64,000 bases of DNA, from assembly GCA_004347695.1 (NCBI GenBank), contig SLTK01000003.1:59898-123897 (forward strand). The letters are read 5' to 3'. Position 1 is the first letter of the stretch, and each line of letters starts with the position of its first letter. Shown here one piece after another: positions 13,764 to 15,683 of this stretch. A program made the position numbers and the translations under genes. The notes under the pieces were generated by a model. That model ran no database searches, had not been told where the DNA came from, and worked only from the letters and a program-made list of their open reading frames with translations. This stretch comes from Chloroflexota bacterium. Lineage in GTDB: Bacteria > Chloroflexota > Anaerolineae > Anaerolineales > Anaerolineaceae.

Positions 13764-14789
13764 TTATTCTTCGATTTTCTTGGAGAGACCTTGCAGCACC
13801 AGGCCGATACCGAGGAGTGCCAGACCGAGTCTCCCGAATACGGATTGCACATTTGCCATCGGGGAAGGCATTGACTGATCTGCACCGGTCACTGGGATGA
13901 GGACCCTATTGGTCGAAGGCGGAGGAGGAGCAAAGGTCGCAGGGTCAGTGGGGTCAGTGGTTTCTGTTACGACCGGGGTAACTGTCACGACCGGAGTGTC
14001 CGTAACAACCGCAGTAACTGTCACGACCGGGGTTTCGGTTACGACCGGAGTGTCCGTAACAACCGGGGTATCGGTCACGACGGGGGTGTCAGTAACAACC
14101 GCAGTAACTGTCACGACTGGAGTTTCGGTGACAACTGGAGTTTCAGTGACAACCGGAGTTTCAGTAACCACCGGAGTATCGGTTACAACTGGGGTATCGG
14201 TCACGACCGGAGTGTCTGTCACAACAGGCGTATCCGTCACAACCGGAGTATCGGTTACAACCGGGGTATCAGTAACGACTGGAGTATCAGTAACGACTGG
14301 AGTATCAGTAACAATCAGGCCATCCACCCGATAGTTGTCATTCTTTATCTTAGCACTCTCCAGCCAAAGATCAACGGTATATACACCCCAGTCATCAGGT
14401 AATACTGTGTAAGCATCTACACAAAAATAACCAGTTGCAAGGGCTGTTACTGAAACATTGGCGACCTCGGTATCCGAGTCACCGCTCGAGCCGCCAGGAT
14501 TTCCGGTAACTGTAACTTGGTACGTTGTATTTGGTATAAAACCTTCCCCTCGCACAACCACGGTTTGACCAATTGCGTAATGGTTCTTGTCTTGATCAGC
14601 GCCGGCATCAACGCTGCAAGGCTGAACTGTGGTCCAAATTGACCCGGCCCCGCCTTGTTGAGCCTGAACCTGCTTCATAGGTATGACGTTAAATACTAAT
14701 GAAGCGATAAGCAGCCCCAGTCCGCTGATATAGCTGATACGGCTCAGCGAGCGCAGTGTTTTGTGTAAGGGAATTCCGTGTGTATTCAT
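13764..14789 (-). CDS. Cell-surface protein with about 20 tandem (V/P)VVT(D/E/V)T hexapeptides and an LPXTG-like sorting tail
   Basis: N-terminal hydrophobic signal, Ig-like N-domain, repeat region, C-terminus LIPVTGADQ...VFGRLGLALLGIGLVLQGLSKKIEE (motif, TM, basic tail). Confidence 0.85.
   Translation of the reverse strand: MNTHGIPLHKTLRSLSRISYISGLGLLIASLVFNVIPMKQVQAQQGGAGSIWTTVQPCSVDAGADQDKNHYAIGQTVVVRGEGFIPNTTYQVTVTGNPGGSSGDSDTEVANVSVTALATGYFCVDAYTVLPDDWGVYTVDLWLESAKIKNDNYRVDGLIVTDTPVVTDTPVVTDTPVVTDTPVVTDTPVVTDTPVVTDTPVVTDTPVVTETPVVTETPVVTETPVVTVTAVVTDTPVVTDTPVVTDTPVVTETPVVTVTAVVTDTPVVTVTPVVTETTDPTDPATFAPPPPSTNRVLIPVTGADQSMPSPMANVQSVFGRLGLALLGIGLVLQGLSKKIEE
13957..14312. repeat. 18-bp-period coding tandem repeat
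   Basis: About 20 units of GTNAC(A/G)ACNGGNGTNTCN on the + strand, encoding PVVTDT on the minus strand. Confidence 0.95.
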
Positions 14790-14961
14790 TTGGCTCTCCT
14801 GTTTCCCAGTAGTAAAAAAGGAAGAAAACGATCTTGAAATAAAAAGTTGTTAAGACCAGCGCCTGAAATGGCACTGGGGTAAATATCCCGCCAGTTGCGG
14901 GAAAAGATGAAATCCGATGGATGTTATTTAAATGTGCAAGGACATCCTGGCTAACCATTTG

Positions 14962-15048
14962 GGCCGGTTTCGCTATTGGCTCCCCACATCCCGCTTTCCC
15001 CCTTGGAAAAGATAGCGACCAATTTCGGGTTCGTGGATCGACGCCGCC
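14962..15048 (-). ncRNA. Structured leader RNA, copy 1 (gene-proximal), unidentified riboswitch-like motif
   Basis: GGCGGCGTCGATCCACGAACCCGAAATTGGTCGCTATCTTTTCCAAGGGGGAAAGCGGGATGTGGGGAGCCAATAGCGAAACCGGCC; shares conserved blocks with copy 2 while the helices differ by compensatory changes. Confidence 0.6.
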
Positions 15049-15076
15049 CTTGCTTTGGTATTAACTGGTATTAAAT

Positions 15077-15101
15077 AAAAAAACCAGCCCAAAGGCCGGT
15101 T
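15077..15101 (-). terminator. Rho-independent terminator overlapping the 3' end of leader RNA copy 2
   Basis: Minus strand AACCGGCC-TTT-GGGCTGGTT then TTTTTATTT. Confidence 0.75.
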
Positions 15102-15179
15102 TCGCTACTGGCTCCCTATGCACCTGTCCCCACTTTCAGGACCAAGCGACCACGTTTTGGCACATAGATCTTCGCCGCC
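15094..15179 (-). ncRNA. Structured leader RNA, copy 2 (promoter-proximal)
   Basis: GGCGGCGAAGATCTATGTGCCAAAACGTGGTCGCTTGGTCCTGAAAGTGGGGACAGGTGCATAGGGAGCCAGTAGCGAAACCGGCC; helix CTATGTGCC/GGTGCATAG and GGTCGCT/AGCGAAACC. Confidence 0.6.
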
Positions 15180-15510
15180 TTATAATACCACTCAATTATT
15201 AATGTTGTTACTTAGTATTATATATCAATAAAAGTCCTTGTCAATAATTTTTTGGTTTGTAATTGGTAGAAATTTCTAAGAAATACTCACCCGTTTCAAA
15301 GACTTTCGAATATCCAGCACTTATGTATTCAAGTGCTTAAGTATTATACAGAAAAAATATGGAATTGAAAACAACCAATATTTGACCTGTCAGATCTCCT
15401 GGTAAACCCATATTTTCCGTGACATTCAGTACCAGTGACATTCCACACTGACATTCCGCACCTTGACAGAGCCAGCTTCGCTGACTATACTCGAATTAAA
15501 TTGAATACTT

Positions 15511-15640
15511 GGCCTTCGGGGCAGGGTGCGGGATCATGATCCCAATTCCCGATCGGTGGTGATAACCCACGAGCGCATCAATCAGCGCATGACCTGGTGA
15601 AACTCCAGGGTCGACGGTAAAGTCCGGATGAAAGAAGGCA
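15511..15640 (+). promoter_or_regulatory. FMN riboswitch (RFN element)
   Basis: CCTTCGGGGCAGGGTG...TTCCCGATCGGTGGTGATAACCCACGAGC...GACCTGGTGAAACTCCAGGGTCGACGGTAAAGTCCGGATGAAAGAAGG matches the canonical RFN blocks. Confidence 0.95.
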
Positions 15641-15683
15641 AATGAGACCGGTGTTGCTTGCAATGGGCGCACTGCGTCTGCCA

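Follow-up and report, generated by a model that had tools for sequence, protein, structure and literature searches.

The window analysed here, a stretch of 64,000 nucleotides, carries on its minus strand two aptamers in series of ~87 nt each, placed between a promoter and the gene for a 341-aa secreted Thr/Pro-rich repeat protein, which is their presumed target (Table 1). The start of the gene lies at 14789, with AGGAG as its ribosome site, and its repeat (Thr/Pro/Val) consists of 19 copies of an 18-bp unit at 13972-14314. The N-terminus of the protein is signal-like and its C-terminus ends in LIPVTGAD followed by a hydrophobic stretch and a basic tail, an end that we take to be a sortase-type sorting signal. 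A Pfam search of the 341-aa protein gave no domain above the cut-off. The first-pass annotation, made from the sequence alone, had described two repeated RNA copies on the minus strand upstream of a repeat-rich surface protein; every motif that it listed was found in its place, and its choice of a surface protein as target is supported. Divergent from the tandem lies an FMN riboswitch (RF00050), followed by an ORF of 255 aa that falls in no family, an NMT1/SsuA-like binding protein and an ABC ATPase, which together look like a riboflavin-type ABC importer. Antisense control of this plus-strand gene by the tandem was considered and set aside, since the gene has its own FMN riboswitch.

Table 1. 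Positions of the tandem element and neighbouring features in the window.
Feature	Position	Strand	Evidence or remark
FMN riboswitch (RF00050)	15508-15643	+	92.3 bits
Promoter, TTGACA / 16-nt spacer / TATAAT	15217..15244	-	12/12 consensus matches
Upstream aptamer (copy 2 of the first-pass annotation), class II c-di-GMP fold	15085..15188, core 15180-15094	-	RF03169, 46.4 bits
GGCGGCGNNGATC	15179-15167 (upstream copy), 15048-15036 (downstream copy)	-	sequence inspection
Upstream-copy helix	CTATGTGCC 15167-15159 with GGTGCATAG 15124-15116	-	
GGTCGCT	15151-15145 (upstream copy), 15020-15014 (downstream copy)	-	sequence inspection
Upstream-aptamer pseudoknot, 5' strand GGUCGCU	15145..15151	-	partner AGCGAAACC 15106-15098; A69/A70 left bulged
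Distal hairpins	15143-15126 (upstream copy), 15011-14994 (downstream copy)	-	
GGGAGCCARTAGCGAAACCGGCC	15116-15094 (upstream copy), 14984-14962 (downstream copy)	-	sequence inspection
Intrinsic terminator, AACCGGCC-TTT-GGGCTGGTT then Ts	15101-15082; independent finding 15103-15080	-	fold -14.3 kcal/mol
Downstream aptamer (copy 1 of the first-pass annotation)	14953..15055, core 15049-14962	-	RF03169, 39.7 bits
Downstream-copy helix	CCAC..CCCG 15036-15026 with CGGG..GTGG 14993-14984	-	
Leader, downstream aptamer to start codon	14787..14961	-	
Presumed target, 341-aa secreted repeat protein	13764..14789	-	

Rfam cmscan of a 701-base query against 4227 families matched both copies to RF03169 (c-di-GMP-II-GAG), with E = 6.9e-8 for the upstream copy and E = 3.6e-6 for the downstream copy, the latter 0.3 bits below the curated cut-off of 40 bits. 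The scores for RF01786 (c-di-GMP-II) were 42.3 and 34.9 bits, respectively, both below its curated cut-off of 53.5. RF03169 and RF01786 belong to the same clan, CL00127, and the architecture of that clan, P1-P2-P3 with a pseudoknot, is present here with covariation. The variable helix of the window copies is P3 and the pairing of GGUCGCU with AGCGAAACC, already noticed in the first-pass annotation, is the pseudoknot of the class, while P1 has only ~3-4 pairs in both copies. The tandem riboswitch reading made at that stage is borne out by these matches, and the failure to place the RNA in a known family is not: the Rfam matches of both copies rule out a novel riboswitch family, the very outcome that the annotation had named as refuting novelty, and the window tandem calls for no new class.

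Homologs with covariation, which were to be sought in related genomes, are common in the order of the host. RF03169 matched in 56 of its 201 genomes and RF01786 in 55, with all 14 control genomes silent, and the RF01786 cut-off was reached in only 5 of the 201. Tandem sites, taken as aptamer pairs less than ~150 nt apart, numbered seven in six genomes (G000, G013, G113, G123, G152 and, twice, G174). One of the G174 sites is a triplet (L037, C14:311841-312171), three class II c-di-GMP aptamers with almost no spacing between them, each of the first two lacking its own terminator. Among 64 parsed aptamers of the order, 93% of cells at positions 1-7 of P3 hold a standard pair. Sliding the helix by 1-3 bases lowers this to 33-52%, a control that corrects for relatedness where shuffling does not. 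Many exchanges were seen in P3 (GC/AT/CG/TA, for example), and in the pseudoknot, where pairing reaches 97-100%, pair 3 exchanges T-A/G-C/A-T and pair 5 G-C/A-T. These results show that the RNA structure is real.

The upstream aptamer has a visible means of switching. The 5' arm of the intrinsic terminator, AACCGGCC, is also the strand that provides the pocket, pseudoknot and P1 of this aptamer, and an overlapping terminator follows 57 of 63 aptamers of the order, against 32 of 189 shuffled tails (17%). Pocket, pseudoknot and P1 are incompatible with the terminator hairpin, and the ligand is thus predicted to prevent termination. The mutually exclusive pairing proposed in the first-pass annotation therefore stands for the upstream copy, the only one of the two with such a terminator. 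Transcription would start near 15210, a few bases past the promoter. With no ligand, AACCGGCC would pair with GGGCUGGUU and RNA polymerase would halt at the run of U residues near 15080. Once the level of c-di-GMP, the biofilm signal, goes up, the ligand would be held by pocket residues U37, G39, A61, A69, A70, C71, C72 and G73, so that pseudoknot and P1 form, the terminator is blocked and transcription continues into the surface-protein gene. The downstream aptamer would be read only after read-through and would make the response steeper by adding another c-di-GMP-dependent step, and its platform may be translational. Our reading, held with fair confidence, is that the leader of a sortase-anchored surface protein contains two class II c-di-GMP aptamers in tandem and that these operate as an ON switch. 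The sequence, the family match, the covariation, the pocket identity, the overlapping terminator, the promoter and the neighbouring regulon are observed directly, and from them we infer the ligand, the ON direction, the role of the downstream copy and the anchoring of the protein.

The downstream copy has no recognisable platform in the window. No terminator overlapping it was found in the leader, and the best duplex of its 3' strand with the leader (-11.5 kcal/mol) was reached by ~50% of shuffles. Hairpins near 14865 were tried as a terminator and rejected because too much sequence separates the T-run from the stem. Translation control by this copy found no supporting duplex in the window, and found support in a relative of the same family, G113, which has a terminator after its first aptamer, none after its second, and an IPVTG-ending protein downstream. 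At this locus (L021), the switching strand of the second aptamer, UAGCGAAACC, is complementary at every base to the start region of that similarly anchored gene, GGUUUCGCUAUG, and likewise to GGUUUCGCUA, which runs into the AUG. The second aptamer of G113 thus probably has a platform that acts on translation, paired with a first one that acts on transcription. G013, of the same genus as the host, has its terminator after the second aptamer instead. The absence of a terminator and of any significant alternative pairing, together with a score just under the cut-off, would suit a duplicate that is decaying and regulates nothing, leaving the upstream copy as the only switch. This explanation deserves some weight, but we consider it the less probable one, since the pocket, the pseudoknot and P3 (through its internal loop) are all intact in the downstream copy, and G013 and G113 likewise have leaders with two aptamers ahead of proteins that end in IPVTG. 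What G113 suggests for the window is that a single ligand could act at two levels on the same surface-protein gene, on termination through the upstream aptamer and on translation through the downstream aptamer, a proposal that we regard as rather doubtful.

The identity of the ligand was approached through the pocket. The numbering of the c-di-GMP-II structure 3Q3Z was carried over to the window letters by means of the Rfam consensus lines and of the Clostridium acetobutylicum sequence, an alignment with a small register risk. In 3Q3Z the ligand is contacted by A13, A14, U37, G39, U60, A61, C68, A69, A70, C71, C72, G73 and A74 (PMC7288161). Both window copies keep U37, G39, A61, A69, A70, C71, C72 and G73. 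In both, position 68 is A for C68 with its partner changed to U (U40-A68 for G40-C68), and the bulged contact A13 is C. Of the 64 order aptamers, 14 have C at position 13, both window copies among them, and 48 have A. U37, A69 and A70 are present in both copies and in 64 of the 64 parsed aptamers, and c-di-GMP is therefore the likely ligand as far as pocket letters can tell, in line with the second-messenger aptamer that had been offered as a guess.

The RF03169 match raises the question of whether both aptamers are instead true c-di-GMP-II-GAG variants that sense another signalling molecule, since this model, that of an orphan-ligand variant, outscores RF01786 for both copies (46.4 vs 42.3 and 39.7 vs 34.9 bits). 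The GAG name, as Weinberg reportedly used it in 2017, refers to pocket letters 69, 70 and 73. The RF03169 consensus has a C before GG and a G at 69, and our scan of 84,980 genomes for a G69 core returned 55 stretches, mostly in Nitriliruptoraceae and Frankiales, with a few in Chloroflexi and one in Verrucomicrobia. C37 is found in 38 of 43 parsed members; G69 was imposed by the search pattern, C37 was not. True GAG-type (G69) aptamers also occur as close pairs, ~150 nt apart, at two loci in Frankiales/Frankiaceae (L119 and L131). In the window these markers are absent, with A in place of G69 and U in place of C37, and the higher RF03169 score comes from the scaffold (U40-A68 for G40-C68, and the GGUCGC strand). 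We therefore consider a GAG-type ligand improbable. The window RNA has an ordinary c-di-GMP-II pocket on a GAG-like scaffold, so that its Rfam label is probably misleading and it should not be classed with the GAG variants. Members from the host's order sit between two Rfam models although they carry the pocket of ordinary c-di-GMP-II, a caution that the top Rfam label may name the wrong ligand variant.

A two-input gate, with a different ligand for each aptamer, had also been raised in the first-pass annotation as an alternative to a steep response, and P3 and the distal hairpin are indeed unlike between the copies. These elements, though, are variable in every homolog, and every pocket position that could be read is identical in both copies; the GGGAGCCARTAGCGAAACCGGCC 3' core is one base apart, at position 62, where G and A alternate freely among the aptamers of the order (36 vs 28). 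Two inputs are thus very unlikely, and the shared pocket residues make a steeper response to one ligand the likelier part of that suggestion. That the copies are chance repeats or an inverted-repeat artefact with no functional RNA has nothing in its favour and can practically be dismissed, given E values of this size across all Rfam families and the compensatory changes among homologs.

The genomic setting gives the c-di-GMP reading a context. Elsewhere in the host genome, single aptamers lie ahead of two secreted proteins of the camelysin family (PF12389), of a response regulator with a sortase behind it, and of a subtilase. The genome encodes two clear sortase domains and a weak one, nine GGDEF domains and one EAL domain. 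The genes preceded by aptamers and the nine GGDEF and one EAL domains fit c-di-GMP control of the cell surface. At one locus (L152, G000:C6:240400-244500), a class II c-di-GMP aptamer stands before an OmpR-type response regulator and a sortase, with a second, weak sortase domain on the opposite strand. A search of the host genome for c-di-GMP-I (RF01051) gave no match, but control genomes were equally silent, so that this result does not establish absence. From sequence, these loci suggest that c-di-GMP may control surface and matrix proteins through riboswitches in a Chloroflexota-like lineage that has been little studied. They also provide a coherent small regulon for testing.

Our literature search returned no paper on class II riboswitches in Chloroflexi. 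Compared with known systems, the window copies share with c-di-GMP-II (RF01786; 3Q3Z, C. acetobutylicum) the P1/P2/P3 and pseudoknot fold and the eight kept pocket residues, but differ from it in C13, in U40-A68, in scores below 53.5 bits and in an extra distal hairpin between the pseudoknot strand and P3. With c-di-GMP-II-GAG they share the scaffold, U40-A68 and scores around the cut-off of 40, but they have A69 and U37 where the variant has G69 and C37, and the GAG core is mainly found in Actinomycetota (Nitriliruptoraceae, Frankiales), unlike the window's host. Tandem c-di-GMP-II riboswitches have been published as 59 doublets and 9 triplets, most of them preceding a COG4932 surface anchor protein in Paraclostridium (PMC9481103). 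The window differs from those tandems in its Chloroflexota-like host, in an unrelated target protein and in having a visible terminator for only one of its two aptamers. It resembles them in the same-class pair before a surface-protein gene, for which a sharper response is expected, and it is a further example of an already published arrangement, the tandem c-di-GMP-II riboswitch before a surface-anchor gene.
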